Positions 1 through 20,784 of a stretch of DNA of 32,980 bases are shown piece by piece. The stretch lies in the NCBI GenBank assembly GCA_022071945.1, contig JAJVIN010000067.1, forward strand, positions 1-32,980, read 5' to 3'. The translations under genes were made by a program, and so were the position numbers. Source of the stretch: Thermoanaerobaculia bacterium (GTDB lineage: Bacteria > Acidobacteriota > Thermoanaerobaculia > UBA5066). The notes under the pieces are model-generated. The model made no database searches. It was not told the DNA's origin and worked only from the letters and a program-made list of their open reading frames with translations. The stretch's first letter is position 1. Each line of letters starts with the position of its first letter.

Positions 1-176
1 GCAGGAGGTCCTGTGTGCAGGAGGTCCTGTGTGCAGGAGGTCCTGTGTGCAGGAGGTCCTGTGTGCAGGAGGTCCTGTGTGCAGGAGGTCCTGTGTGCAG
101 GAGGTCCTGTGTGCAGGAGGTCCTGTGTGCAGGAGGTCCTGTGCTCAGGAGGTCCTGTGCTCAGGAGGTCCTGTCC
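1..176. repeat. 16-bp tandem repeat array, 11 units
   Basis: Eleven head-to-tail 16-bp units fill the start of the window, and the array may extend beyond it. Units 1 to 8 are identical, GCAGGAGGTCCTGTGT. Units 9 to 11 (129-176) differ only in the first or last two bases. Each unit holds a near-palindrome, CAGGA-GG-TCCTG, and an AGGAGG that matches the Shine-Dalgarno consensus. There are no spacers, so this is not a CRISPR array. Because 16 is not a multiple of 3, all three forward frames stay open and encode the same 16-residue Cys-rich periodic peptide. A degenerate twelfth unit (GCTGGAGGTTT) leads into the short reading frame at 191. A shorter array with the same core lies at 4789-4860. 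Confidence 0.97.
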
Positions 177-190
177 GCTGGAGGTTTGCC

Positions 191-304
191 GTGGAAGAGG
201 TCTCTCCGCCTCTCGCCCGCCCCCGGCACGAGCCCGAACGTCTCGTCGGCCTTGCTCTGGCCATCCGGGACCTGTCGAGCATGCAGGCACATCTCCTCTG
301 CTGA
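191..304 (+). pseudogene. Short reading frame sharing its start with the ankyrin gene (possible gene-start remnant)
   Basis: A GTG-started frame of 37 codons sits directly behind the 16-bp repeat array, with GGAGG ending six bases before the GTG. Its first residues, VEEVSPPLARP, closely match the start of the ankyrin protein at 4863 (VEETSPRLARP). The bases around the start (GCCGTGGAAGAG) are identical, and the repeat plus the spacing to the start are also shared. After about 12 codons the similarity ends and the frame stops at 302. I read it as the 5' end of a paralogous gene or of a dispersed repeat that carries a gene start. It could be a genuine tiny peptide, but nothing supports that. 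Confidence 0.4.
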
Positions 305-477
305 CGGCGTGAGGTATCATAAAAGAACAATCGGATGATTGGGGCGCAGGAGAGAGGAACCGCCTTCCTTGGGCGCTGGCACCCGGCGAGGGGTCCGACG
401 GCTCGCCATTCTCTGCTCCAGGCCGGCTCGACCCGGACGCGAAAACGGCTCCCTCTCAGCACTCTGAAGGAGGAAGC
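305..477. other. Non-coding leader of the 1379-aa exported protein gene
   Basis: No gene is visible here. There is a small stem (CAATC, loop GGAT, GATTG) near 330-343 and an AT-rich patch (TATCATAAAAG) near 314 that could be part of a promoter, but no convincing -35 box accompanies it. The segment ends in a strong ribosome binding site, GAAGGAGG, six bases ahead of the ATG at 478. Confidence 0.5.
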
Positions 478-3400
478 ATGAAGACCCAGTTCGTCATGGC
501 ACTTCTGATCGCGGGCGCGCTGATTCCGCAGTCCGGCGTGGGGGTGGAGCCGGTACCACCGGCCTCTGTACTTTCGCTGGTTCCCGGTTCGTCCCCGGCA
601 CCGGACCTTGCGGGACCGTGGGTCGCCGGGCCGGCGTATCCGACCGGAATCGTCCGGTACGGGTTCGCTTCGGTGGGGAATGATCTCTACGTCATCTCGG
701 GTGTCGCGAGCGGCTCGAGGGTGGTCAACGTGCGGCGGTACGACTCTGTCACCAACGCGTGGACGGACTTGGCCCCGATTCCGGTCGCGAGCGAGGCCCC
801 GGCCGCCGCCCACTTCGCGGGCAAGATCTATGTGGCTCCAGAGTCGAGCGGCAACGGGTTCCATATCTATGACATAGCCACCAACACATGGTCGAGCGGG
901 GCGGCAGCGCCCAGGAACTTCTATGGCGCGGCCGCCGGGGCCTGGAACGGGAAGGTGTATTTCACAGGTGGCGGCACCACCGGAGGAGTCACCACTCTCG
1001 ACATCTACGACATCGCGAGCAATACCTGGAGTACGGGCACGCCCGCACCGGCTGCGTTCTACATGGCGGGATTCACGCAGGTGGGACAGTACCTCTATAT
1101 CGCCGGCGGCTTTACGCCCGCCTCCCCAACCACCAACAACAACCAGACGTGGCGGTACGACATGGTGGCCGGAACCTGGAGCACCGGGCCCGCGTTTTCG
1201 TCGGCCCGGGGCGACTTCCCCCTTGCGGCGGCGGGCGGAACGCTGTACGCCATGGGGGGCGACACGAACGGCGGCGGCTACTTCTCCGCGACGACGACGC
1301 TCGTCGAGGAGTTGCCACTGTCCGCGTGGCCTGGCGGGAGCTGGGCGGCGTCAGGTCCGGCGCTGAACTCGGGCCGGCAGGCGAACTCCGCGGGGTTCTT
1401 CTCGACGGGCCGGGTGGGCGGCGAGATCTGGACGACGGGCGGTCTCGACAACTCGTTCACCTGGATGGCTTTCCACGAGTACACGGCCCAGTGCGCGACG
1501 ACATCGATCAACACCGTGCCGTCGTGGAATGGTAGCGGTCTTGTGAGTCCCTTCGGCGTCCCGGACACGGCGACCTACGGGCAGGTGATCTCGGCTCCAG
1601 CAGGGGCCACCTCTCTCACGGGATTCACCGTCTACATGAGGGTGCCGGCGACGGTCGCCTTCCGTGGGGAAGTCTATGCCTGGGATGCCGTGAACATCAG
1701 AGCGACAGGACCCAACCTCTTCGAGAGCACCACTCAAAGAACGAAGCAGGGAGCGGTATTCGAGCCGGTGACATTCACCATTCCAGGAGGCGTGACAGTT
1801 ACACCGGGAAGCCAGTACGTGATCTTTGCGTCGACTTCCAGGGACCAGGCATTAGGGAGCGGCACGGGTCCCTGGGGGTTCGTCAACGGCGGCAGCAACC
1901 AATTCGTGTTTCTGAACAACGGCGGCAATCCGGCGCAGTGGACAACCGTCCCTTGGACGACGAATTGGGGCGGCGACCTGGCCTTCACGGCGACGTTCTG
2001 TGGGGGCAGCAACCAGGCTCCCACCATCACTCCGATTGCCTCGCTCACGGTTCCCAGGGGAGCCACGACCAACGCTCAAATCGCCACGGTGTTCGATCCG
2101 GATACCACGCCTCCCGCACTGAGCGTCAGTGCCACGGGCGCTCCCTCGGGCATCATCGTGGCCAACTTCGTTCTCACGGCGACCGCTCCCGCCGGGACCT
2201 ACAACGTCACGGCCGACATCATCGCCGCCTGTGACGCCGCGGCGACGGGACCCGTGAACCTGCAGGTGACCGACGGGATCGCCGCGCCGGCCACGGGCTC
2301 ATTCACTCTCAACACGACCGCGACCGCGGCCGGCGCGACCTTGACCGGCGGCGCAACGCTCTGCGCGGGCGAGAGCACGACGCTCTCGGTGGCCTTGACG
2401 GGTACCGGCCCGTGGAGCCTGACGTGGTCCGACGGATTCATCCAGAGCGGGATCGCGGCGACGCCGGCAACCCGCGTGGTCTCCCCGGCTGTGACGACGA
2501 CATACACGATAACGGCGGTGTCGGGTGCGAACGGCTGTGCGGGGACGGCCTCGGGATCGGCTCTCGTGACGGTCAACCCCCGACCGACAGCAACGGTGAC
2601 GGGCGGCGGAACGGTCTGCGCCGGAACGGTCTCGACGATAAACGTGGCCCTGACGGGCACGGCACCGTGGACGATCACGTGGAACGACGGGACGATCCAG
2701 ATCGCGGCCGCGAACCCAGCCACACGCCAGGTGAGCCCGACGTTCAATCAGACGTTCACCGTCGTGGCTCTGTCCGATGCCAAGTGCGCGGGCGGGACGT
2801 CGGCGGGGTCGGCGTCCTTCGTGGTGAAGCCGCTCCCCTCCTCCGTGATCACGGCGGCCAACGGCGTCTGCTTCTCCTCGACCGGCAACACGGCCTCGGT
2901 GCCGGATGGTGGACCGGGAACGACGTACGCCTGGGCGATCACGGGCGGGACGATCACCTCGGCGGCGAACACGGCGGGCATCACGTTCACCGCGGGCGCG
3001 TCGGGCAACGTGGTGCTGACGGTAACCGTGACGAAGGACTCGTGCCCGAACGTGGGGACAAAGACCATCCCGATCCAGACGCTGCCTTCGGCGCCGGTGC
3101 CGGCAATCCCGGCAAACGGGTCGACGTACAGCGGAGCGTTCGTCTCGTGGACGCACGCGGGCGGGACCTGGTACGACGTCTATCTCGACACGGTGAACCC
3201 GCCGGAGAAGCTGATCTTCTCTGGAGAGACGAGTAACTTCGAGGCCTTCATTCCGTCGTGGGTGTCCGGCGTGACGTACTACTGGAAAGTGGTGGCGCGC
3301 AATGGATGCGGCACGGCGTCTTCGCCGGTTCAATCGTTCATCGCGGGCAGCTGCCCGTGGACGGGCGCCGCACCCACCCTGACGAGTCCGCCGAACGGAG

Positions 3401-4617
3401 CGGCCGGCGTGGGAGCGACGGCGACTCTGCAGTGGAACGACTTGGCCGGCGCGGCTCACTATGACGTGTACATCGGGACGAGCAGCGGGAGCCTGACGAG
3501 ATACGACGTGGCGCACGCGCCGGAGAACTCGGTTGCCGTGCCGGTTTCGCCGGGAGTCACGTATTACTGGAAGGTGATCGCCGTGCCGGTGTGCGGCTCT
3601 GCCTCGGCGACGGTGTCGGGGACGAACAGCTTCACGACGGCGGGGTCACCGTTCGGTGCGACCGCCTTTGCCCCGGCCTTCTTCAACCGGTGGGATTCGG
3701 GGACGGTGACCTTGTCGGGGAGTGGATTCACGGCAGGGATGCAACTGTTCACGGATTTCCACGGAGCGAGTGCCGGAACACTTGTTCCCGCGGTCTTCAC
3801 GAACTCGTTCTCGAACCCGGCCCAGCTGCAGGCGACGCTGATCGGGAACCCGCAGGCACCCGCCGGGCGGTACGACGTGGGAGTGACGCTCTCTGGAGTC
3901 GAGGAGGGACGCTTGACGCAGGCGATGGCGCTGCGGGCATTCACGGACGTCACGGAGGCCGACTACTACTTCCTGTCGTCGGCGCGGATGGCGGACGCCG
4001 GGATCATGGAGCCCGACTCCTCCGGTTCGACCCCTGGGCCGCAGTTCTCACCCTCGACGAACGTGACACGGGCGTTGATGGCGGAGTACCTGGCGAAGTC
4101 GTATCAGTGGTGGCGGTACCGGAGCGTGGCCCTGCCGGCCGCGACGTGCATACCGAGTGGAGCCGGGTCGACGGACTTCCCTGACGTCCCGTGCAGCCAT
4201 CCGAACTGGCTGGCGATTCACTGGATCAAGGTGTGGGGCGTGACGCAGGGAACGCCGTGCACACAGGGCCTCTGCTACAACCCGGATGGGAACGTGAACC
4301 GCGCGGAGATGGTGACCTTCATCGAGCGGCTGAGGCAGACGGGCGTCTTGAACACGCTGCTGTCGACGGTGGGCGAGAAGGATCCCGGGTGCGCGGTCGA
4401 CTACCCGGGCTGCAAGGGTTGGGCGGACGCTGGCGGCGTGATGGACGTGGCCGCCTGGCCGCGTCGCGAAGCGAACCTGGCGTTTGCCGACAGAATCACG
4501 GCTGGGTGCTCTGGAACACCTGGTAACAACCTGATGTTCTGTCCATTCGACACGGTGACGCGGGCGCAGATCGGCGAATTCCTGGCGAGGACGCTGGGCC
4601 TGGTGCCGATGCCGTGA
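478..4617 (+). CDS. Large exported Kelch / Ig-like / FnIII-like protein with C-terminal SLH-like modules
   Basis: This 1379-residue protein starts with a signal peptide (MKTQFVMALLIAGALIPQSG). Residues about 45-310 form Kelch-type beta-propeller repeats (VYFTGGG, LYIAGGF and YAMGGD with recurring NTWSTG). From about 510 come Ig/cadherin-like stretches, then three related Cys-containing SprB/PKD-like repeats near 620, 705 and 790 (GGATLCAGEST, GGGTVCAGTVS). Two FnIII-like modules follow near 870 and 964, each with YDVYxxT and VTYYWKV. From about 1155 to the end lie three degenerate S-layer-homology-like modules (FTDVTEADYYF, FPDVPCSHPNWLAIHWI, VTRAQIGEFLARTLG). The layout suggests a secreted or surface-anchored adhesion or carbohydrate-binding protein, and no catalytic site is recognised. 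A strong GGAGG precedes the ATG. It appears monocistronic and ends in a clear hairpin. Substrate and partner are unknown. Confidence 0.9.
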   Translation: MKTQFVMALLIAGALIPQSGVGVEPVPPASVLSLVPGSSPAPDLAGPWVAGPAYPTGIVRYGFASVGNDLYVISGVASGSRVVNVRRYDSVTNAWTDLAPIPVASEAPAAAHFAGKIYVAPESSGNGFHIYDIATNTWSSGAAAPRNFYGAAAGAWNGKVYFTGGGTTGGVTTLDIYDIASNTWSTGTPAPAAFYMAGFTQVGQYLYIAGGFTPASPTTNNNQTWRYDMVAGTWSTGPAFSSARGDFPLAAAGGTLYAMGGDTNGGGYFSATTTLVEELPLSAWPGGSWAASGPALNSGRQANSAGFFSTGRVGGEIWTTGGLDNSFTWMAFHEYTAQCATTSINTVPSWNGSGLVSPFGVPDTATYGQVISAPAGATSLTGFTVYMRVPATVAFRGEVYAWDAVNIRATGPNLFESTTQRTKQGAVFEPVTFTIPGGVTVTPGSQYVIFASTSRDQALGSGTGPWGFVNGGSNQFVFLNNGGNPAQWTTVPWTTNWGGDLAFTATFCGGSNQAPTITPIASLTVPRGATTNAQIATVFDPDTTPPALSVSATGAPSGIIVANFVLTATAPAGTYNVTADIIAACDAAATGPVNLQVTDGIAAPATGSFTLNTTATAAGATLTGGATLCAGESTTLSVALTGTGPWSLTWSDGFIQSGIAATPATRVVSPAVTTTYTITAVSGANGCAGTASGSALVTVNPRPTATVTGGGTVCAGTVSTINVALTGTAPWTITWNDGTIQIAAANPATRQVSPTFNQTFTVVALSDAKCAGGTSAGSASFVVKPLPSSVITAANGVCFSSTGNTASVPDGGPGTTYAWAITGGTITSAANTAGITFTAGASGNVVLTVTVTKDSCPNVGTKTIPIQTLPSAPVPAIPANGSTYSGAFVSWTHAGGTWYDVYLDTVNPPEKLIFSGETSNFEAFIPSWVSGVTYYWKVVARNGCGTASSPVQSFIAGSCPWTGAAPTLTSPPNGAAGVGATATLQWNDLAGAAHYDVYIGTSSGSLTRYDVAHAPENSVAVPVSPGVTYYWKVIAVPVCGSASATVSGTNSFTTAGSPFGATAFAPAFFNRWDSGTVTLSGSGFTAGMQLFTDFHGASAGTLVPAVFTNSFSNPAQLQATLIGNPQAPAGRYDVGVTLSGVEEGRLTQAMALRAFTDVTEADYYFLSSARMADAGIMEPDSSGSTPGPQFSPSTNVTRALMAEYLAKSYQWWRYRSVALPAATCIPSGAGSTDFPDVPCSHPNWLAIHWIKVWGVTQGTPCTQGLCYNPDGNVNRAEMVTFIERLRQTGVLNTLLSTVGEKDPGCAVDYPGCKGWADAGGVMDVAAWPRREANLAFADRITAGCSGTPGNNLMFCPFDTVTRAQIGEFLARTLGLVPMP

Positions 4618-4659: not shown

Positions 4660-4700
4660 TGTTCCTGTCCCGGGCGAGACAACGAGAGACCTCGGGCTTC

Positions 4701-4720
4701 CTCGGAGTACGATCTCCGAG
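4701..4720. other. Small inverted repeat in the ankyrin-gene leader
   Basis: CTCGGAG and CTCCGAG form 7-bp complementary arms around the 6-base loop TACGAT. It lies between the terminator of the preceding gene and the second repeat array. It could be an operator or an mRNA stem; nothing else indicates its role. Confidence 0.35.
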
Positions 4721-4788
4721 TCGATCCGCACAGAGGTGCCGGCGGGTCCTGAGGTCGAGGACCCGCGACGCGAACGGGATACCCCTGT

Positions 4789-4860
4789 CCGGAGGAGGTC
4801 CTGTCCCCAGGAGGTCCTGTGAGCAGGAGGTCCTGTTTTCAGGAGGTTCCAGGAGGTTCG
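4789..4860. repeat. Second, smaller array of the 16-bp AGGAGGTCCTGT repeat
   Basis: Three units with a 16-bp period (4789-4804, 4805-4820, 4821-4836) share the core AGGAGGTCCTGT and vary in their first four bases. Two shortened copies (AGGAGGTTCC and AGGAGGTTCG) follow. The last AGGAGG (4851-4856) is correctly placed to be the ribosome binding site of the GTG start at 4863. The variable bases and shortened end copies make it look older than the array at 1-176. Confidence 0.95.
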
Positions 4861-4862
4861 CC

Positions 4863-6140
4863 GTGGAAGAGACATCTCCCCGTCTCGCCCGCCCGGGAAT
4901 TCGAGCTTGGCTCGCGTGCTCTGTCGTCGTGGCGGTCGTGCTCGCGCTCGTGGCCGATGGCGGACCGAGTCCCCATCACTTCCATCCTGCCCCACGGCTT
5001 CCCGTGCTTTTTCTGTGCCTCGCGGTGTTTGCCTTCGTGGGATACGAAATGGCCAGCGTCAAGCGTCTCGGCCGCTGGGTGATCGAGGCCGGGATGGCGC
5101 TACTTCTTCTCGCGCTGACGGCCGCCGGAGCCGGCTTCTTGCTCTTTGCGGTGTCGAGCGCCTTCTTCGGAAGAGCGTCAGGCGAGGCTGCCCTGGGAAC
5201 GTTCTTGCTCGTGGCCGGGCTGAGTCTTCTGAGCGCGCCCTTCTTGACGGCGGCCCTTCTCTTCGTCTTTCTCAGATACCGGGGGGATCCTCACCCCGTC
5301 TGGAACAGCGTCGCCCTCGTCCCGGAGGCGCTGGCGGTGCTCGCCGTGGTCGTCCTCGTGGGAGGGATCGTAAGCACGCTGGGACGGAGCGTCGAACGGC
5401 GCGAGACGTTGCTTGCCTGGGCGGCGCGCGAGGGCAGGCCGGGTCTCGCCCGCTTCCTTCTGAACCGGGGGGCGAATGCGAACGCCGCGACCCGGGACGG
5501 AGAGACACCCGTCCTGGCGGCAGTTGTCGGCTGCTATCCACCACCCAGGGAGGCCGGGAGGAAGCTCCGGGTCGTCGAGATCCTCCTCGCCGCGGGAGCC
5601 AACCCCGACGGAACCGGCAACAACACGCCCCTCATCTCATCCATCGGACAGATCGGGGGCCCGGAACTGGTCAAGGCCCTCCTCGAGCACGGGGCCGATC
5701 CGAACAAGGGCGCGTGGGGAACGACACCGCTGAGAAGAGCCGTGGAGTCTCGGGACCTCGCGAGTATCTCGCGGTTGCTGAAGGCGGGAGCGCGAGCGAA
5801 CGAGCCGGACCAGAAGGGAATCACGCCCCTGATGCTGGCGGCGAGCCGGCCCTACTACGGGACCTCGACGACCGAGGTCCTCGAGCCTCTTCTCGAAGCC
5901 GGCGCCAGCGTGGATGCGCGAGACCAGGAGGGAAGGACGGTCCTTCACTGGGCGGCGATGAGCCGTGACCGGGCGGTCCTGGAACTGCTGGTTTCTTCCG
6001 GAGCGGATCGGGAAGCCCGCGACCGGCACGGACGCCTCCCGGTCGACCTCCTCGGAACAAAGTTCCGGAGGCTCGGCGACGAGTACATCCCCTTCTCGGA
6101 GCCGGCAAGTCAGGATCTGAGTCAGCTCCTGGCGCCCTGA
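4863..6140 (+). CDS. Membrane-anchored ankyrin-repeat protein
   Basis: A 425-residue protein starts at a GTG with AGGAGG six bases upstream, supplied by the last repeat unit. About five hydrophobic segments fill the N-terminal half (residues about 15-35, 47-66, 75-100, 105-137 and 145-170). Residues about 179-425 are ankyrin repeats, with telltale phrases such as TLLAWAAREGRPGLARFLLNRGA, PELVKALLEHGADPN, GITPLMLAA and GRTVLHWAAMSRD. Ankyrin stacks bind other proteins; here they would project from the membrane, probably into the cytoplasm, but orientation and partner are not visible. The start region is shared with the short frame at 191. It stands alone, converging on the arsG end of the ars operon. 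Confidence 0.88.
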   Translation: MEETSPRLARPGIRAWLACSVVVAVVLALVADGGPSPHHFHPAPRLPVLFLCLAVFAFVGYEMASVKRLGRWVIEAGMALLLLALTAAGAGFLLFAVSSAFFGRASGEAALGTFLLVAGLSLLSAPFLTAALLFVFLRYRGDPHPVWNSVALVPEALAVLAVVVLVGGIVSTLGRSVERRETLLAWAAREGRPGLARFLLNRGANANAATRDGETPVLAAVVGCYPPPREAGRKLRVVEILLAAGANPDGTGNNTPLISSIGQIGGPELVKALLEHGADPNKGAWGTTPLRRAVESRDLASISRLLKAGARANEPDQKGITPLMLAASRPYYGTSTTEVLEPLLEAGASVDARDQEGRTVLHWAAMSRDRAVLELLVSSGADREARDRHGRLPVDLLGTKFRRLGDEYIPFSEPASQDLSQLLAP

Positions 6141-6924: not shown

Positions 6925-7415
6925 GCCGGCTCCAGGAATGCCCGGATTTCATCTCGCACGTAGCGGGTGAACGCATCCTGGTCTTTCAGCAGCGGCCAGA
7001 CCTGCTCGAGGTTCTTCCACCTCACCTCCCGGCCCGCCTTGACCTCGGACACGACGACGGACTTCGTGTGGAGACCGTAGTCCTTCGCATAGTGCGCGTT
7101 CTGGGGCTCGTCGATGTTGACGGTGCGCCACACGAGCCGTTTCTCCGCCAGCGGAACGGCGAAATCGCTGGTGACGGTGAGACTGGTCAGATCCTCGATG
7201 CGAAGGCAAGACGGGCAGCGCGCCGTCGTGTGAAAGTAGGTGACGACGATCGTGGAGGCGCCGGCCGTTGGGGCGGCGGCCTTCGCGGGCCGGGCGGAAT
7301 CCGCGGCCGCGACGGCGCGGGCGTGGCGGGTTTCCTTGACGGCAAGCGTGATCGCAGTGACGGCCACGAACGCCAGCAGTGCGGCCGTGGCGAGGGACCT
7401 GCGTTGAATCCTCAT
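6921..7415 (-). CDS. arsF: ArsF-like thioredoxin-fold protein
   Basis: This 164-residue protein has an N-terminal hydrophobic segment (residues about 9-26, a signal or anchor) and then a thioredoxin-like domain with the redox pair CPSC (Cys67, Cys70), preceded by IVVTYFHTTAR. The family is annotated from arsEFG-type operons as a subunit of a nitrophenyl-arsenical reducing system; the exact chemistry of this member is inferred from relatives. The ATG overlaps the permease stop (ATGA), and its own stop overlaps the arsG start. The true start is the ATG at 7415; the frame continues upstream only as a shadow of the permease gene. Confidence 0.78.
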   Translation of the reverse strand: MRIQRRSLATAALLAFVAVTAITLAVKETRHARAVAAADSARPAKAAAPTAGASTIVVTYFHTTARCPSCLRIEDLTSLTVTSDFAVPLAEKRLVWRTVNIDEPQNAHYAKDYGLHTKSVVVSEVKAGREVRWKNLEQVWPLLKDQDAFTRYVRDEIRAFLEPA

Positions 7416-8599
7416 GAGGCGATCGCTCCGAAAACGAGGCCCGTCACCGTTGCCATCACGATGACGAGACTCACGTAGGTGACGGTCTTCTTGAAACCCA
7501 GGTACGAGTTGATGACGATCATGCTGGGAAGGGACAGCGCCGGTCCCGCGAGAAGCAGGGCAAGGGCGGGCCCCTTGCCCATCCCCGAGCCGATCAGCCC
7601 CTGCAGGATGGGGATCTCGGTCAGTGTCGCGAAGTACATGAAGGCGCCCACCACGGACGACAGCAGGTTCGCCGTGACGGAGTTCCCGCCGACCGCGCCC
7701 GCAATCCAGGCGTCCGGAAGGAGTCCCGAGTCCTGGCCGGGGCGCCCCATCAGCCATCCGGAAACGAGAACCCCACCCAGCAGGAGAGGCAGGATCTGCT
7801 TGGCGAACTCCCACGTCCCGAGCACCCAGTTCTTCAACTCCTCGCGGTCGTACCAGCCTCGCATCATCCAGAAGAGGAGAAGGAGAGCGGCGCCTGCCAG
7901 ATACCAGTGAATCTCCCAGATCGTCGCGAAGAAGCCCACATTCTTGTTCGGCGTCCCCCAGTTGGCGAACACGAGAAAGGCGACCATCGAGCCAAGGAAG
8001 GACGCATCCTGCCAGCCCTCGCGGCTTTCGGCCCGCGCGGCCGCTCCCGCCGCGGCGAATGGATCGGGTCCGTTACGCACTCGCTCCTCGTCTTCCTCGC
8101 GGAAGAGGGCCGCCATGATCAAACCGATGACGACCGCGAAGACGATGGCTCCCGCCGCGCGCGCGACGCCAATCTCCAGACCCAGGACCCGGGCCGTCAG
8201 GATCATGGCGAGCACGTTGATCGCGGGGCCGGAGTAGAGAAAGGCCGACGCTGGCCCGAGTCCCGCCCCTCTCTTGTAGATGCTCCCGAAGAGCGGGAGG
8301 ACCGTGCAGGAACAGACCGCCAGGATGGCGCCGGAAAAAGATGCCACGCCGTACGCGACGGGACGCCTTGCAGAGGCGCCCAGGTACTTCATCACCGCTC
8401 CCTGGCTGACGAACTGCCCGATCGCGCCGGCGATGAAGAAGGCCGGGACGAGGCAGAGCAGCACGTGCTCCCGGGCGTAGTCCCGCAGGAGCGCGAATCC
8501 CTCGGGGATGGCCCTCTGGACCCGGCTGCTCTCCAGCGGCATGAAGTAGGCCCCCAGGAAGACCCCGAGGATGAGGAGGAGCTTCGTCCTCTCTTTCAT
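7412..8599 (-). CDS. arsP: ArsP-type permease (organoarsenical efflux)
   Basis: A 395-residue polytopic membrane protein of the permease family once called DUF318. It carries the characteristic motif CSCTVLPLFGSIYKRG (Cys96 and Cys98) and a matching second half (LSSVVGAFMYFATLTEIPI). ArsP members export trivalent organoarsenicals; other family members lie near thiol-redox proteins with no assigned substrate. The loop at about 170-200 is charged and variable. GGAGG lies seven bases before the ATG at 8599. It is the second gene of the leftward ars operon, 52 bp after the CxxC protein and overlapping arsF by ATGA. Confidence 0.82.
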   Translation of the reverse strand: MKERTKLLLILGVFLGAYFMPLESSRVQRAIPEGFALLRDYAREHVLLCLVPAFFIAGAIGQFVSQGAVMKYLGASARRPVAYGVASFSGAILAVCSCTVLPLFGSIYKRGAGLGPASAFLYSGPAINVLAMILTARVLGLEIGVARAAGAIVFAVVIGLIMAALFREEDEERVRNGPDPFAAAGAAARAESREGWQDASFLGSMVAFLVFANWGTPNKNVGFFATIWEIHWYLAGAALLLLFWMMRGWYDREELKNWVLGTWEFAKQILPLLLGGVLVSGWLMGRPGQDSGLLPDAWIAGAVGGNSVTANLLSSVVGAFMYFATLTEIPILQGLIGSGMGKGPALALLLAGPALSLPSMIVINSYLGFKKTVTYVSLVIVMATVTGLVFGAIAS

Positions 8600-13734: not shown

Positions 13735-13744
13735 GGGGGGTTGA

Positions 13745-14392
13745 ATGAAGCCAGAGGTTCCGAAGAGTCAGGCGGTACGTGCCGGGATCCTCGAGGCTGC
13801 CGCGGGGCTCTTCGCGGAGCATGGGTACGCCGGAGCCTCGATGGACGAGATCTCGCGGCGCGCGGGCGTGAACAAGGCGATGCTCTACTACTACATCGGC
13901 GACAAGGCCGAACTGTTCGCGTCGGTTCTCGAGGAGTACATGGGTGCGCTCCGCGACCACCTCGAAGAGGTGATCGCCCAGACCCCGGATCCCGAGGAGC
14001 GGATCCGCCGGATGCAGTCCGCCATCCTTGCCGTGTTCAGCCAGAAGCCCTGGCTGCCCGGGATGGTGATTCGCGAGATCGTCTCGGGTGGACGCCACCT
14101 CCCGCCGAGAGGCCTTGCGAAGCTCGCGGAGGTCATCGGCATAACCTTTCGCGTCATCGAGGACGGCAAGGCAAAGGGAGCCTTTCGCGACGTCAACCCG
14201 ATGCTCATGCACGTCGTTCTCGTCGGAACGAGCGCCCTTTTCGTGAACGCGCTCAGGCTCAGGGAGCGCCTCGAGGCGACGGGCACGCTGCCGGCGCCCA
14301 TCGAGCTGGAACCAGGCGCTGTCGCCGCCGAACTGTCGGACATCATCCTTCACGGGGTTGCCAAGCCGAAGAAATCCGGAGGAAAGAAATGA
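13745..14392 (+). CDS. TetR-family repressor of the exporter operon
   Basis: This 215-residue protein has an N-terminal TetR helix-turn-helix (residues about 12-60: ILEAAAGLFAEHGYAGASMDEISRRAGVNKAMLYYYIGDKAELF) and a helical ligand-binding domain behind it. In position it equals CecR (YbiH), which leads the ybhGFSR operon in E. coli. It likely binds the palindrome ten bases upstream of its own start and is released by a substrate of the pump, which cannot be named. Its TGA overlaps the ATG of the adaptor gene (ATGA). Confidence 0.9.
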   Translation: MKPEVPKSQAVRAGILEAAAGLFAEHGYAGASMDEISRRAGVNKAMLYYYIGDKAELFASVLEEYMGALRDHLEEVIAQTPDPEERIRRMQSAILAVFSQKPWLPGMVIREIVSGGRHLPPRGLAKLAEVIGITFRVIEDGKAKGAFRDVNPMLMHVVLVGTSALFVNALRLRERLEATGTLPAPIELEPGAVAAELSDIILHGVAKPKKSGGKK

Positions 14393-15369
14393 CCTTCCGT
14401 CGTAGCCTCAGACCAGCCCTCCTGATCGCCCCGATCCTTCTTCTGGCGTCGTGCCAGAAGAAGAGCCCGAACGGGTTGATTCACGCCTCCGGCCACATCG
14501 AGGCCACGGAAGTGCGACTGGCCGCAAAGGTCGGGGGAAAGCTGTCGGAACTCCCCTTCCAGGAAGGAGACCGCGTGAAGGCGGGAGACGTGGTCGCGCG
14601 GATCGACACGAGCGATGCCGAGATCGACCTTCGAAGGGCCGAAGCCGAGGTTGCCTCGGCGGACGCGCGCCTCCGACTGCTCTTGGCGGGAACCCGCGTC
14701 GAGGACATCCAGAAGATGGAGGCCGAGGTCGGCCGCGTCGAGGCGGAACTCGCGAACGCCGAACGTGACAAGGTCAGGTTCGAGGGACTCTCGGAGCGAG
14801 GAACGGCCACCGTGAAGGCGCGCGACGACGCCCGAACGAAGGTCACGGTGCTCTCCCGGCAACTAGCGGGAATGAAGGCCGAGTTGCAGAAACTCAGGAT
14901 CGGGCCGCGCACCCAGGAGATCGACAACGCTCGGGCGCAGAAGCAGGTCGCGGAGGCGATGGTTGCGTCCATCAAGCAAAAGATCTCGGATGCCACGGTC
15001 ACCTCCCCGCGAGAGGGAACCGTCACCCAGAGGACGACGGAACCGGGAGAGATCCTCCCCGCGGGCAGTGTGGTCTCCGTCCTCACCGACATCTCTCGCC
15101 CCTGGCTCAATGCCTACGTGGACGAACCGGTGCTGTCGCGCATCAAACTCGGCGACACGGTTCGCGTTCGCGTGGATGGAAGCGAGAAGGACTTCACCGG
15201 GAAGATCACCTATGTCTCGGAAGTCGCGGAGTTCACGCCGAAGAACGTGCAGACACCCGAGGAGCGAGCGAAGCTCGTCTTTCGCGTCAAGATCGGGCTG
15301 GACAATAGTGGCCTCGTCTTCAAGCCGGGGATGCCCGCGGACGCCTATTTCCAGCCGTCTCAGAAGTGA
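14389..15369 (+). CDS. Lipoprotein HlyD/YbhG-type periplasmic adaptor
   Basis: This 326-residue membrane-fusion protein begins with a lipoprotein signal (LLLASCQKK, lipobox Cys about residue 21), so it is probably anchored by lipid. The first biotinyl-lipoyl half (GHIEATEVRLAAKVGGKL, VKAGDVVARIDTSD) is followed by a long helical hairpin (about 85-195, rich in AEAEVASADARLRLL and VGRVEAELANAERDK). The second lipoyl half (TVTSPREGTVTQRT) and a beta-barrel come next. It links the inner-membrane ABC complex to the TolC-like channel. GGAGGAAAG precedes the ATG, which overlaps the tetR stop. The frame is open further upstream, but only as a shadow of tetR. Confidence 0.9.
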   Translation: MTFRRSLRPALLIAPILLLASCQKKSPNGLIHASGHIEATEVRLAAKVGGKLSELPFQEGDRVKAGDVVARIDTSDAEIDLRRAEAEVASADARLRLLLAGTRVEDIQKMEAEVGRVEAELANAERDKVRFEGLSERGTATVKARDDARTKVTVLSRQLAGMKAELQKLRIGPRTQEIDNARAQKQVAEAMVASIKQKISDATVTSPREGTVTQRTTEPGEILPAGSVVSVLTDISRPWLNAYVDEPVLSRIKLGDTVRVRVDGSEKDFTGKITYVSEVAEFTPKNVQTPEERAKLVFRVKIGLDNSGLVFKPGMPADAYFQPSQK

Positions 15370-15377
15370 GGGCCGCG

Positions 15378-16331
15378 ATGGAATCCGGCGTCGTTCTCTC
15401 GGCACGGTCTCTCTTCATCCGCTATGGGCCCGAGGAAGCCGTGCGGGGCATCAACCTGGAGGTGAACCGCGGCGAAGTCCTCGGTCTGATCGGACCGGAC
15501 GGGGCGGGAAAGACCTCGACGCTCCGGACCCTCGCCGCCCTCCAGAAGCCATCCTCCGGTGACATCCTGGTGTTCGGCGAGAACGCCTGGAAGAACCGCC
15601 GCGTGCTTCACGGACGGCTCGGCTACCTCGCGCAGAGGTTCGCCCTCTACGAGGACTTGACGATCGACGAGAACGTCCAGTTCTTTTCTCAGCTTCTGGG
15701 CGTCAAGAAATGGAAGCCGCGGCGAGACTTCTTGCTCGAGCGGGTCGGTCTCGCGCCGTTCAGGGACCGTCAGGCCGGACGGCTGTCGGGAGGGATGAAG
15801 CAGAAGCTCGCGCTCGCAACCAGCCTGATGCACGCGCCCGAGATCCTCCTCCTCGACGAACCGACCACCGGTGTCGATCCGGTGACACGCCGCGAGTTCT
15901 GGGGCCTGCTTTCGGGCTTCGTTGCCGAGGGGCTGACGCTCGTCATCGCGACACCCTATCTCGACGAGGCCGAGAGGTGTTCCCGGGTGATCCTGATGCA
16001 CCAGGGCCGGATCCTGGCGGACGCGCCGCCGAAGGCGATCACGAAACAGGTTCCGGGCGTCATTCTGGAAGTGGCGGCCGAGCCCAGAGCCCGGGCGGCC
16101 GAAGTGCTTCGTACCGCCCTGCCCGATGTCGGCATCCAGTCCTTTGGTACCCGGTTCCACCTGCAGTTCCCCGAAAGGCCGTCGCAGAGTCTCGTCGACC
16201 GGATCCGGCGCTCGCTTTCGGAGGCCGATGTGCGGATCGAGAGCCTCCGCGAGATTCCTCCCGGCCTGGAAGACGCCTTCCTTCATCTCACCGGAGTAGA
16301 TGCCGCCGCTCCCGTTCAGGAGGCCGCATGA
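15378..16331 (+). CDS. ABC exporter ATPase, YbhF N-terminal-half type (H-loop His missing)
   Basis: This 317-residue ATP-binding protein has Walker A GPDGAGKTS (about 38-46), signature LSGGMKQ (about 137) and Walker B ILLLDEPTTGVD (about 155-166). The H-loop reads ATPYLDEAERC, so the usual histidine is Pro193. This substitution often marks the degenerate half of a paired ATPase; the partner at 17641 keeps its histidine. I start it at the ATG at 15378, five bases after GAGGG; a GTG at 15366 overlapping the adaptor stop is also in frame. It probably forms a heterodimer with the second ATPase and energises the two permeases. Confidence 0.9.
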   Translation: MESGVVLSARSLFIRYGPEEAVRGINLEVNRGEVLGLIGPDGAGKTSTLRTLAALQKPSSGDILVFGENAWKNRRVLHGRLGYLAQRFALYEDLTIDENVQFFSQLLGVKKWKPRRDFLLERVGLAPFRDRQAGRLSGGMKQKLALATSLMHAPEILLLDEPTTGVDPVTRREFWGLLSGFVAEGLTLVIATPYLDEAERCSRVILMHQGRILADAPPKAITKQVPGVILEVAAEPRARAAEVLRTALPDVGIQSFGTRFHLQFPERPSQSLVDRIRRSLSEADVRIESLREIPPGLEDAFLHLTGVDAAAPVQEAA

Positions 16332-17644
16332 AGACCGCCAGATGCCTCATCTTCCTTCTCCTCGCGCCGCCTCTGGCCGCCGGTGAGACGATTCATCTCA
16401 CGGCCGAGGAGGCCGCTCGCCGGATCCTCGAAGTCTCGGCCGTGGCGACTGCCGCGACGGAACGGACGGCCGCTGCGGCCTCGGCCGTCAAGGCCGCGGA
16501 GGCTGCCGTCCTTCCCTCGATCAGTGCCGCGGCGACCGTCGCGGAACGCAGTTCGGTTCCCGAGTACCGGATGCCGTCGCCCCTTCCTGGCTATGAAACG
16601 CCGGTTCTCGTCCCGAACATCACCGAGACCTACTCCGCGCAGCTGCGGGCGCTTCAGGTCATCTATTCGGGGGGAGCCATCACGGCTCAGAGGCGGGCAG
16701 CGGAGAACGACAGGGCCGCGGTGACTGCCGAGCGTGACACCACCGCGGCGGATCTGAAGTTCCTGGCGCGATCTGCCTACTGGGAAGCCGTTCGGACGCA
16801 GGCGACCCTGGCCGCGGCCCACGCCCAGGAGAAGCGAGCCCTCCAGCTCGTCGACGACACGAAGGCGACCTTCGAGGCCGGCTTGTCGGTGCGGGCCGAC
16901 GTCCTGGCGGCGGAAGAGCGTGCCGCCCGGGCGAAAGTCCAGGTCATCCGGGCCACGGTTGCGGCCGAGAACGCCCTGAGCGATCTCCGTTCTCTTCTCG
17001 CCATCGAGCGCGCGAGCGACATCCGGTTCGCGGCCCTCCTGAACTCTCCTCTTCCGGCGGCTCCCGCCTCGGTGGAAGTCTTGGAGAAGGAAGCCCTCGA
17101 GCGTCGTCCCGAGGTGAAGGTACTGGAAGCGAAACGAGCGGTTCTTGCGGAGCGCGAACAGCTGGCCCGCGCACCCGGAAAGCCGAGTGTGAACGCGCAA
17201 GCCCAGTACGAGTACGCGCGCCCGAACAACCGCTACTTCCCGCAGGCCGAGGAGTGGAAGGGGGCGTGGGCGATCTCGCTCGGCGCGGCCCTCACGATCT
17301 TTGACGGTGGCAAGTGGCGGGCCGACGTCGCGACGGCGCAGGCCTCCCAGCGCGCCCTTGAGAATGACCTCCTGGAGCTGAAGCGGCGGATCCAGGTCGA
17401 CGTGGAAACGGTCGCGAACAACCTCGCCGCGTCGCTGGCAGCCGTCGTGGCGACCGATGCGGCGCACGCAGCCGCCGTCGAGAGCGAGAAGGCCGCCATC
17501 GAGCGGCGCGAGGCCGGCCTCGCCTCTCTCATCGAAGTGCTCGACGCACAGGGCCAGCTCGCCAACGCCGAGCAGGAGCAGATCCAGGCGAGGGCCGCGG
17601 CGTGGCTGACCGCGGCGCGCCTGGACCGGGCCGCCGGACGATGA
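16328..17644 (+). CDS. TolC-family outer-membrane efflux protein
   Basis: This 438-residue protein has a signal peptide (MKTARCLIFLLLAPPLAAGE) and the two-fold repeated coiled-coil and beta-strand pattern of outer membrane factors. Long Ala/Glu-rich helices span about 40-80, 130-230 and 330-420; the repeat ends show LQVIYSGGAITAQRR and ALTIFDGGKWRAD, typical of the strand-turn regions. It would form the trimeric exit channel for the exporter. Its ATG overlaps the first ATPase stop and its TGA overlaps the second ATPase start, so it is embedded between the two ATPase genes. The length is usual for the family. Confidence 0.9.
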   Translation: MKTARCLIFLLLAPPLAAGETIHLTAEEAARRILEVSAVATAATERTAAAASAVKAAEAAVLPSISAAATVAERSSVPEYRMPSPLPGYETPVLVPNITETYSAQLRALQVIYSGGAITAQRRAAENDRAAVTAERDTTAADLKFLARSAYWEAVRTQATLAAAHAQEKRALQLVDDTKATFEAGLSVRADVLAAEERAARAKVQVIRATVAAENALSDLRSLLAIERASDIRFAALLNSPLPAAPASVEVLEKEALERRPEVKVLEAKRAVLAEREQLARAPGKPSVNAQAQYEYARPNNRYFPQAEEWKGAWAISLGAALTIFDGGKWRADVATAQASQRALENDLLELKRRIQVDVETVANNLAASLAAVVATDAAHAAAVESEKAAIERREAGLASLIEVLDAQGQLANAEQEQIQARAAAWLTAARLDRAAGR

Positions 17645-18588
17645 ACGCCTCCTCGCCTGTCGTCACGGCCCGCGACCTGACCTGCGCCTTCGGGGCTTTC
17701 AAGGCGGTCGACCGCGTCAGCTTCGACGTCCAGCCAGGGGAGATCCTCGGGTTCCTCGGGTCCAACGGCGCGGGAAAGACGACCACCATCCGGATGCTCT
17801 GTGGGCTCCTGGCTCCGACCGCCGGAAAGGCCACGGTCCTCGGCTACGACATCGCCACCCAGGGGCTGGAGATCAAGAAGCGGATCGGGTACATGTCGCA
17901 GCGGTTCTCTCTCTACACCGACCTGACGGTCGACGAGAACATCAGCTTCTGGGGGGGAGCCTACGGGCTCTTCGGAGAGGCGATCGAGGACCGACGAAAG
18001 TGGGCGATCGGGATCTCGGGCCTCGCCGAGCGGAGATCCACGGTCGTACGCGACCTGCCGGGCGGGTTCCGCCAGCGTCTCGCCCTCTCGTGCGCGCTTC
18101 TCCACCAGCCACAGGTGATCTTTCTCGACGAGCCGACCGGCGGTGTCGATCCCGCGGCTCGGCGGCAGTTCTGGGACCTGATCGACGATCTCGTCGCCGA
18201 GAACCGAACCGTCTTTGTCACCACGCACTACATGGACGAAGCGGAACGCTGCCACCGGATCGCGCTGATGCACGCCGGCCGGTTGCTGGCGCTGGACACG
18301 CTCTCCAATCTGCAGAAGGTCTTTCCGAAGGACACGGTCCTCGAGATCCGGTGTCCGGAGGCGCCAAAGGCGCTCGCCCTCGTACAGGGAGTGGAAGGCG
18401 TCACGGAGGCGGCCCTCTTCGGAGACCGGCTCCACGCCGTCCTCACCGCCCCCGCGCTTCGAACGGCGGTGAAAAGCCGCCTCGAGGCTGAAGGGTTCGA
18501 CCCGGTCACCCTCGAGATCATCCCGCCCTCCCTCGAGGACATCTTCATCCACATCATCGCCGCCGACGAAGCCGGGAGGGCGAAATGA
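17641..18588 (+). CDS. ABC exporter ATPase, YbhF C-terminal-half type
   Basis: This 315-residue ATP-binding protein has Walker A GSNGAGKTT (40-48), Q-loop region YMSQRFSLYTDLTVDEN, Walker B VIFLDEPTGGVD (about 159-170) and an intact H-loop THYMDEAERC (His196). The signature motif deviates: LPGGFRQ (139-145) in place of LSGGQ. Together with the first ATPase, one with a canonical signature but no H-loop His and one with the reverse, the pair looks asymmetric. In E. coli YbhF both domains are in one chain; here they are separate genes with the TolC gene between them. Start and stop overlap both neighbours by ATGA. Confidence 0.9.
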   Translation: MNASSPVVTARDLTCAFGAFKAVDRVSFDVQPGEILGFLGSNGAGKTTTIRMLCGLLAPTAGKATVLGYDIATQGLEIKKRIGYMSQRFSLYTDLTVDENISFWGGAYGLFGEAIEDRRKWAIGISGLAERRSTVVRDLPGGFRQRLALSCALLHQPQVIFLDEPTGGVDPAARRQFWDLIDDLVAENRTVFVTTHYMDEAERCHRIALMHAGRLLALDTLSNLQKVFPKDTVLEIRCPEAPKALALVQGVEGVTEAALFGDRLHAVLTAPALRTAVKSRLEAEGFDPVTLEIIPPSLEDIFIHIIAADEAGRAK

Positions 18589-19688
18589 TCCGGCGCACTC
18601 TCGCGATCGCCATCAAGGAGATGATGCATCTGAGGCGTGACAAGCGGACGACCGTGACGCTCCTCGGGATGCCGGTTCTCCTGCTCCTCATCTTCGGCTT
18701 CGCCCTGAGCTTCGACGTGGAGCACATCCGCCTCGCCGTGGTAGACCAGGATGGGTCGCGCGCCAGCCGGCAACTCCGAGAGGCGTTCCTGGAATCGGGG
18801 TACTTCGACCTGATCGGGAGCGGCTCCGACCCGCGCGTCCTCGACCGGCTCTTCGACTCGGGCCTGGCCCAGGCAGCCGTCGTGATCCCGGCGGGATACG
18901 GCAGGGACCTGGCAGCGAAGCGCCGCGTCGACGTTCAGTTCGTCCTCGACGGCTCCGACTCGCAGATGGCGACGTCCGTCCTCACCTACGCCCAGCAGAT
19001 CAACTTGGCCGTGTCCCCGATCGTCCGGGTGAAGGGGGGCAAGGGGCCCATCCTTCCGGCTCCGACCGTCTGGTACAACCCCGACCTCGCGACGTCGCGC
19101 TTCCTCGTGCCGGGGCTGATCGCCTTCATCCTGGCGATCACCTCGGTAATTGCGACGGCCCTCTCGGTGGTTCGAGAGAAGGAGCGCGGAACGATCGAAT
19201 CCCTCCGTGCGACACCGCTCTTTGCGACGGAACTCCTGATCGGGAAGGCGGGCCCGTATCTCGTCGTGGCCTTTGTCGCGGCAGCCGGGGCACTGTCTCT
19301 GGCGTGGGCGATCTTCGACGTCCCCGTCAGGGGATCCCTCTTCTGGCTGGCCGTCATCACGGTCCTCTTCCTCGGCTGCGGGCTCGGCTGGGGCATCTTC
19401 ATCTCGACCATCGCCGACACGCAGCAGGTGGCCTTCCAGGTCGGTCTCCTGTCGTCGATGCTGCCGACGCTCCTCCTGTCGGGATTCATGTTTCCGATCT
19501 CGTCGATGCCGGCGCCGCTGCAGGTCATCACCCACATCGTTCCGGCGCGCTACTACCTCGTTGCTCTCCGGGAGATCGTCCTGAAGGGGGCGGGCATCGA
19601 GGTCTGGTGGCAGGAAGCCGTCAGCCTCGTCGTCTACGGCCTGGCGGTCCTCGGGCTCGGCACCGCGCGAATGGTCCGGAGTCTCTGA
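18585..19688 (+). CDS. ABC-2-type exporter permease (YbhS/YbhR-like), first
   Basis: This 367-residue ABC-2 permease has an N-terminal hydrophobic segment (TVTLLGMPVLLLLIFGFALSF), a large external domain (about 45-170, with VDQDGSRASRQLREAF and VLDGSD), then five hydrophobic segments. The conserved phrase RERGTIESL appears in the variant VREKERGTIESLRATP, along with LPTLLLSGFMFPISSMP. It forms half of the membrane channel, with the next gene as partner. Its ATG overlaps the ATPase stop. Confidence 0.9.
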   Translation: MIRRTLAIAIKEMMHLRRDKRTTVTLLGMPVLLLLIFGFALSFDVEHIRLAVVDQDGSRASRQLREAFLESGYFDLIGSGSDPRVLDRLFDSGLAQAAVVIPAGYGRDLAAKRRVDVQFVLDGSDSQMATSVLTYAQQINLAVSPIVRVKGGKGPILPAPTVWYNPDLATSRFLVPGLIAFILAITSVIATALSVVREKERGTIESLRATPLFATELLIGKAGPYLVVAFVAAAGALSLAWAIFDVPVRGSLFWLAVITVLFLGCGLGWGIFISTIADTQQVAFQVGLLSSMLPTLLLSGFMFPISSMPAPLQVITHIVPARYYLVALREIVLKGAGIEVWWQEAVSLVVYGLAVLGLGTARMVRSL

Positions 19689-19689
19689 G

Positions 19690-20784
19690 ATGAGAGCGCT
19701 CCTGAACATCCTGCGAAAGGAACTGATCCAGCTCCGGAGGGATCCGAAGATCGTCCCGATCCTCTTCGTCGCGCCGGTGATGCAGTTGATGATTCTCGGC
19801 TACGCGGCGACGACGGACATCAAGCTGGTGGAACTCGCGGTGTGTGATCTCGACCAGACGGCCGAGAGCCGGATGCTCGTGGAGTCCTTCACCTCGTCGA
19901 AGTACTTCCGTGTCGCGGGGAGAGTCAGTTCCCAGGACCAGATCGACAGCCTCATCGAATCCGGCAAGGCGCGGATCGCCCTGACGATCCCGAAGGGATT
20001 TGCGGCCGAGCGCGAGTCTGGACGGCCGGGGAACCTCCAACTGGTGACGGACGGCTCGGACGCGACGACGGGCCGGGCGGGCCTCGGCTACGCGACGCAG
20101 GTGGTGGCAGGTTTCTCCCGGGATGCGGGCGCGCGTCCCTTGGTCGAGCTGCGGCCCGTGGTCCTCTACAACCCCGATCTCGTCAGCCGGAACTTCATGG
20201 TGCCGGCGACGCTGGCGATGATCCTGATGGTCATGACGATGATGCTGACGGCGATGGCGCTCGTTCGAGAGCGCGAGATCGGGACGATGGAGCAGCTTCT
20301 CGTCACGCCGATCGCGGCCGGTCACCTCATCGTCGGAAAGATCTTCGCGTACTCGCTCGTGGGAGCGGTGGAGTTCTTCACGGCGCTGCCCGTCGTCCTC
20401 TTCTGGTTCAAGGTCCCGCTCCGGGGCCGGCTTCTCGAACTCGTTCTCCTGACCCTGCCGTTCTTGCTGTGCACCCTGAGCTTGGGACTCCTCGTCTCGA
20501 CGCTCGCGCATACACAGCAACAGGCAATGATGTTGACGGCGTTCTTCTTCATGATGCCGCAGATCTACCTGTCGGGCTTCGCCTTTCCGATCCAGAACAT
20601 GCCCGAGTTCTTCCAGTACGTCACCTACCTCATACCACTGAGGTACTACGTGGTGATCCTGAGGGGCGTGTTCCTCAAGGGGGTGGGCATCTCGGTCCTC
20701 TGGCCAGAGGCGCTGGCTCTCGTCGCCCTCGGCCTCGGAATCCTGGTGGTGGCAAGAGCGAGGTTCCAGAAGACGCTGGCATGA
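19690..20784 (+). CDS. ABC-2-type exporter permease (YbhS/YbhR-like), second
   Basis: This 364-residue paralogue of the preceding permease has the same layout: N-terminal anchor (IVPILFVAPVMQLMILGYAA), external domain with VCDLDQTAESRMLVESF and LVTDGSDATTG, then five hydrophobic segments with REREIGTMEQLLVTP and PQIYLSGFAFPIQNMP. The two permeases most likely pair, as YbhS and YbhR do. It starts one base after the preceding stop. It closes the operon; no clear terminator hairpin follows. What the pump exports is not visible from sequence. Confidence 0.9.
   Translation: MRALLNILRKELIQLRRDPKIVPILFVAPVMQLMILGYAATTDIKLVELAVCDLDQTAESRMLVESFTSSKYFRVAGRVSSQDQIDSLIESGKARIALTIPKGFAAERESGRPGNLQLVTDGSDATTGRAGLGYATQVVAGFSRDAGARPLVELRPVVLYNPDLVSRNFMVPATLAMILMVMTMMLTAMALVREREIGTMEQLLVTPIAAGHLIVGKIFAYSLVGAVEFFTALPVVLFWFKVPLRGRLLELVLLTLPFLLCTLSLGLLVSTLAHTQQQAMMLTAFFFMMPQIYLSGFAFPIQNMPEFFQYVTYLIPLRYYVVILRGVFLKGVGISVLWPEALALVALGLGILVVARARFQKTLA

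Follow-up and report, generated by a model that had tools for sequence, protein, structure and literature searches.

Tandem self-complementary Shine-Dalgarno units in front of gene starts as candidate translational leaders in two genera of the Thermoanaerobaculia

Two reading frames in a 32,980-nt stretch of Thermoanaerobaculia DNA (contig JAJVIN010000067.1 of assembly GCA_022071945.1, analysed over its whole length and hereafter called the window) start directly behind arrays of tandem repeats that carry a Shine-Dalgarno (SD) sequence, which raises the question of what several copies of a ribosome-binding site in front of a single start codon might do. A preliminary description of this stretch had counted eleven units before a GTG at position 191 and a smaller array with the same core before a GTG at position 4863, and it proposed that the repeat, the ribosome-binding site and the beginning of the protein travel together as one unit. 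Indeed, both arrays are real. Tandem Repeats Finder (TRF) reports 11.6 copies of GCAGGAGGTCCTGTGT with 97% matches at positions 1-185, 4.0 copies of the array 1 core at positions 4784-4847 and two copies of CAGGAGGTTC at positions 4840-4859. The sequence AGGAGGTCCTGT occurs 14 times as an exact copy in the window, eleven times in array 1 and three times in array 2, a number that was reached in no shuffle, while chance would give 3.1 matches even with two mismatches. The figure of eleven units has to be read as a minimum, since the window starts at a contig edge inside array 1, so that eleven full units are seen and the true copy number is at least eleven. Another contig of the same genome (C53) begins with the array 1 repeat on the opposite strand and is very probably located upstream of the window, the assembly having been broken at the array. 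Divergently from array 1, positions 308-3085 of this contig (L057) encode a protein of about 925 amino acids that seems to have a signal peptide and matches no Pfam family. The features of both loci are compiled in Table 1.

Table 1 Coordinates of the two array loci and of the features next to them in the window.
Feature	Position	Strand	Remarks
Array 1	1..175	+	Eleven full 16-bp units with the core CAGGAGGTCCTGT; cut by the contig edge
Degenerate final unit of array 1	176..190	+	GGAGG at 180-184 is the putative SD; predicted opening cost 4.9 kcal/mol vs about 8.7 within the array
Open frame, 37 aa, GTG start	191..304	+	Homology of its first 12 codons with the start at 4863; may be a remnant
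Kelch / PKD-like / SLH protein gene	478..4617	+	Between the two leader copies
Leader 2	4672..4790	+	Homologous to the C53 sequence upstream of array 1; GGGATACCCCTGTCCG adjoins the array
Array 2	4791..4859	+	Three full units with invariant core and differing spacers, then two shortened units
Putative SD of array 2	GGAGG 4852-4856	+	Predicted opening cost 3.6 kcal/mol
425-aa gene, GTG start	4863..6140	+	Hydrophobic N-terminal part, then ankyrin repeats

The repeat unit of the window, CAGGAGGTCCTGTNNN, contains AGGAGGT, and its core is self-complementary (CAGGA-GG-TCCTG). At both loci the last GGAGG lies six bases from the GTG, as described before, with the spacer TTTGCC before position 191 (GGAGG at 180-184) and TTCGCC before position 4863 (GGAGG at 4852-4856). 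Array 1 is homogeneous apart from its final units. In array 2 the core is identical in the three full units, and the spacers read CCC, GAG and TTT, so that the three remaining positions differ in every pair; if variable positions were placed at random among the 16, all three would fall into the spacer once in 560 cases. A constant core with variable spacers speaks against a neutral repeat. We also considered a coding repeat and rejected it, as all frames are open but 16 is not a multiple of three and there is no sign of protein use. No Rfam family matched above its gathering score in the window or in positions 1-12000 of C53, and an ordinary sigma-70 promoter was not found in the window leader, which might possibly be transcribed with another sigma factor.

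The homology between the two loci is not restricted to the array and the protein start. The first codons are homologous as reported, with nine of eleven residues identical (VEEVSPPLARP and VEETSPRLARP), and downstream the homology stops after about 12 codons, beyond which the alignment score of 23 compares with a shuffle null mean of 23.9. Upstream of the arrays, a further part of about 110 nt with about 80% identity, which the preliminary description had missed, is duplicated as well: window positions 4672-4847 match the reverse complement of C53 with 80% identity over 177 nt, the first units included, and both leaders contain the conserved block GGGATACCC.TGTCCG beside the first unit. As read from these alignments, a leader, an array and the first codons are present twice, flanking the Kelch/PKD-like/SLH gene. 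For the 425-aa ankyrin gene no orthologue was found in the family, with or without an array, and the matches were of ankyrin level only. Elsewhere in the window we noted an ArsP-type permease on the reverse strand (7412-8599) and an efflux-like cluster (13741-20784) that comprises an HlyD membrane-fusion protein, an outer-membrane efflux protein and two ABC-2 permeases.

We then asked how far this unit is spread. The window's genus is represented by one genome, in which the two loci lie about 4.7 kb apart and no third array locus was found, and within this genome the two arrays look like a local duplication. The preliminary description had named a local duplication with nothing similar elsewhere as an outcome that would speak against its proposal, and the first half of this is what the search of this genome for the unit returned. 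Five other exact 12-mers of the core in this genome, considered as the isolated sites of a regulon, are apparently coding and were rejected, as was a doubled core on contig C12, which appears to be the end of hisD. The doubled window unit is absent from all others of 148 relatives, and a search of 396 genomes of the phylum matched two genera and no third, namely that of the window and g18, which belongs to the same class. Across 84,980 species genomes, and in viral contigs as well, the doubled core was found mostly in coding repeats, such as collagen-like viral genes and a NusG-like gene. Streptomyces genomes carry short palindromic arrays at or after stop codons or between genes, unlinked to gene starts; two of them (L090, L091) have nearly the window core (GAGGTCCTGAACCAG, TCAGGAGGTCCTGATGC) and start where the adjacent gene has its stop codon. 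Further genomes of the class (G038, G020 and G033; L128, L143) are rich in other tandem repeats with GGAGG-rich units of 7-9 bp (AGGAGGCC, GGAAGGC, GTGAGGACG), which are apparently intergenic.

The genus g18 was first met through a broader pattern for palindromic SD arrays, and its arrays were then counted with a pattern of doubled GGAGGTCCTCC with spacers of 5-8 nt that is blind to gene starts. This census returned 30 array loci in ten of the 21 genomes, with two to six tandem copies of GGAGGTCCTCC. All 30 arrays face a gene start. In 25 of them, 6-9 nt separate the last GGAGG from an ATG, four carry a variant last unit at a distance of 5-6 nt from the start, and at the remaining locus the start of the cassette is deleted. 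The unit of g18 (GGAGGTCCTCCACAACA) and that of the window have CAGGAGGTCCT in common, in different palindrome registers. The spacing of the g18 units varies between 16 and 19 bp, and the arms are kept while the loops vary in sequence and length; the arms hardly vary and display no compensatory covariation, a constancy which is partly due to selection, as the pattern requires arms without mismatches and two or more units. Degenerate units were counted by hand. Copy numbers are mostly two, followed by four and six, and they differ between species, with orthologues carrying four and two units in two pairs (G085:C133 and G136:C342; G112:C81 and G099:C22). Among the arrays with at least three units, eight are even and two are odd (one-sided P = 0.055; counted by hand, including the variant units of L217, L222 and L225 and counting one orthologue pair once).

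What accompanies the arrays in g18 is more than a ribosome-binding site. A TTGAC[AG] element stands 43-48 nt before the first unit at 20 of the 30 loci, compared with four of 1781 control windows, and it is followed after 16-18 nt by TAGCTA- or GATAAG-like hexamers. Since this promoter-like element lies at a set distance upstream, the g18 array is probably the 5' leader of an mRNA. Across nine loci of one promoter type the identity does not exceed background (0.25-0.31) until the -35 element is reached and rises to 0.84 and 0.72 over the next 36 nt from there, the first six bases having served as the anchor of this profile. On the protein side, 23 of 27 g18 proteins share one signal-peptide-like N-terminus, MRKDSWFRGxLLSVLFFALL, and the mature parts fall into 16 clusters; at one locus (G085:C114) the promoter and the array are as in the cassette and the N-terminus is a different one. 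A protein search that was blind to the leader recovered 12 cassettes with arrays of 2-4 units, and also two signal-peptide genes and one decayed copy without an array. Judging from these alignments, g18 has a dispersed cassette that is made up of promoter, tandem SD leader and protein start. The idea that repeat, ribosome-binding site and protein start travel together has no more than two loci about 4.7 kb apart behind it in the window's own genome, but it gains weight from the 30 g18 loci with the same architecture and a related unit. The related suggestion of a mobile repeat that captures downstream genes fits the g18 cassette, which is dispersed and has a sharp left edge at its -35 element, although neither a mobilising enzyme nor a terminal structure turned up.

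The cassette proteins of g18 (L133, L155-L157, L161, L214-L233) are mostly small (110-225 aa) and exported, several contain much Cys, Gly and Ala together with hydrophobic helices and have a bacteriocin-like look, and the two that were scanned gave no Pfam match. Two loci appear altered: the start codon and the first codons are lost beside an intact array at L216 (G085:C102), and L178 (G112:C14) is a frameshifted copy that has lost its array, as if decaying.

Since each unit is self-complementary, we predicted how the arrays would fold as RNA. The window array is predicted to fold far better than its shuffles (z = -6.7), and neighbouring units can pair as UCCUG-NNNN-CAGGA hairpins, with the variable spacer as the loop. 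In g18 the predicted hairpin between neighbouring units, GGAGGUCCUCC-ACAACA-GGAGGUCCUCC, has ten pairs and a U-U mismatch and closes both SDs. With even unit numbers, a consensus g18 leader is predicted to need about 10 kcal/mol for the opening of its last SD, and with odd ones about 1 kcal/mol; natural even leaders are predicted at 8-13 kcal/mol and the only odd natural leader tested at 1.3 kcal/mol. When a single unit is taken away from or added to natural even g18 leaders in silico, their last SD becomes easier to open by 4-11 kcal/mol. The last SDs of the window lie outside the paired array and are moderately open in the prediction (3.6-4.9 kcal/mol), so that a lock as such is not predicted for the window. 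At two g18 loci (L217, L225; G085:C105, G085:C56), the variant GAGAGGAGGATCTC comes after three regular units and immediately precedes a TTG start. This variant can still pair with the preceding unit through two G-U pairs and a T-A pair that replaces the usual T-T mismatch, and the variant unit of G055:C43 likewise keeps its pairing through G-U. Such G-U-compatible variants fit pairing in RNA better than a palindrome in DNA.

The reading that we favour is that the arrays of the window and of g18 are mRNA leaders of tandem self-complementary SD units that act on translation, to which we assign a probability of roughly 0.45, i.e. a little short of an even chance. Each unit would combine an SD (AGGAGGT) with a half that is able to pair with the SD of the neighbouring unit, so that adjacent units would form hairpins, and the SD that is actually used would be that of the last unit. 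By prediction, this SD is closed in g18 leaders with even unit numbers and open in those with odd ones, and output would be set by a change in copy number or by a factor that binds to the hairpin or melts it. By being copied between genes together with a promoter and usually the first codons, the leader would place a set of genes under one control. The window would represent a variant in which the used SD lies beside the paired array instead of within it, and we infer that its arrays work like those of g18. A more specific version, in which dispersed cassettes of a promoter, a self-complementary SD array and usually a signal-peptide start have spread among unrelated secreted-protein genes and the parity of the repeat number is an on/off switch of translation, an odd unit being left open, appears unlikely to us. 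Against the translational reading, the excess of even numbers could arise from arrays that grow two units at a time, and the two signal-peptide genes of g18 without an array also count against it, as do the partly selected constancy of the g18 arms and the moderately open last SDs of the window.

The alternative that has to be taken most seriously is a neutral palindromic minisatellite, in which slippage would have enlarged a self-complementary SD region of one ancestral leader before a local duplication, so that the position at the start codon would be inherited and the copy number would have no function. For the window alone this is a serious rival: its genome has two loci only, with homologous flanks, array 1 is nearly homogeneous, as after a recent expansion, and the similar palindromic arrays of Streptomyces at or after stop codons are unlinked to starts. 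However, the substitutions of array 2 are confined to its spacers while the core is invariant, and all 30 arrays of g18 face starts within a cassette of promoter, leader and signal peptide; taken over both genera, we consider a neutral origin doubtful, albeit with a real chance of being correct. Clearly less probable is that the palindromic units are DNA sites of a transcription regulator that represses or activates the promoter of the cassette. Perfect dyads at nearly fixed spacing, and in g18 a common promoter with conserved spacer sequence just upstream, would suit such operators, but a unit spacing of 16-19 bp in g18 changes the helical phase, the distance to the start codon is what is held fixed, isolated intergenic copies were not seen in the window's own genome, and the G-U-compatible variants point to RNA. 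The preliminary description had considered that many AGGAGG copies could bind many 30S subunits, and a corresponding model, in which 30S subunits would gather locally at the repeated SDs and so enhance initiation at the last one, is improbable to a still higher degree: every unit does contain a good SD, and the last one is ideally spaced, but the units pair mutually, so that most SDs are predicted to be closed, and the unit has kept its second half, which is of no use to an SD as such (an SD alone would not require the TCCTG half of the window unit). Finally, repression of the CsrA type, with the repeated CAGGAGG as CsrA/RsmA sites overlapping the SD, would be in line with the GGA-centred motif of CsrA and its repetition in CsrB-like RNAs, but we rejected it as largely refuted, because PF02599 is absent from eight genomes (that of the window, five of g18 and two of family members) in a search whose controls, E. 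coli, B. subtilis and T. maritima, were positive.

Among known systems, leaders with SD-sequestering hairpins such as RNA thermometers close the SD by pairing just upstream of the start. The g18 leaders may resemble them, as their last SD is predicted to be closed at natural copy numbers (8-13 kcal/mol), the window leaders reaching 3.6-4.9 kcal/mol only, and they would differ from RNA thermometers in that each unit pairs with a further copy of itself and the repeat number is predicted to decide on closure. In our search of the open-access literature we found nothing on tandem or multiple SD arrays of this form. The statement of the preliminary description that no element of this form has been described nevertheless needs to be narrowed, since start-proximal direct repeats are on record: TAACTGA repeats stand close to start codons in marine Beggiatoaceae, some Cyanobacteria and Bacteroidetes, at many loci and with a scattered distribution (MacGregor 2015, PMC4679880). 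The arrays of the window and of g18 are likewise tandem direct repeats immediately upstream of start codons, but they differ in most details. Neither unit is TAACTGA, a sequence unlike an SD that seems to take its place and for which no folding is predicted (PMC4679880), whereas the window and g18 units contain an SD and are self-complementary, their arrays are predicted to fold strongly, and the g18 array comes with a promoter and a signal peptide, no shared promoter or protein start having been reported for TAACTGA. A second precedent is provided by uspA1 and uspA2 of Moraxella, where tandem repeats between promoter and start codon vary in number with the strain and affect expression experimentally (as cited in PMC4679880). 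These units are of 1-4 nt, lack an SD and concern one gene each, unlike the SD-carrying units described here; the g18 leaders are similar in that the repeat number differs between close relatives, and an effect on expression is what the folding models would suggest. We therefore file the arrays of the window and of g18 as a variant of start-proximal tandem repeats outside any named family.

If the parity reading were true, the array would be a very compact switch, in which the gain or loss of one unit of 16-17 bp would flip translation, and unrelated secreted proteins would have been put under one control by means of a copied cassette of promoter, leader and signal peptide. The about 30 natural leaders of g18, with two to six units, provide material for direct tests. 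Taken together, the arrays suggest a little-known way in which these bacteria may time the production of proteins.
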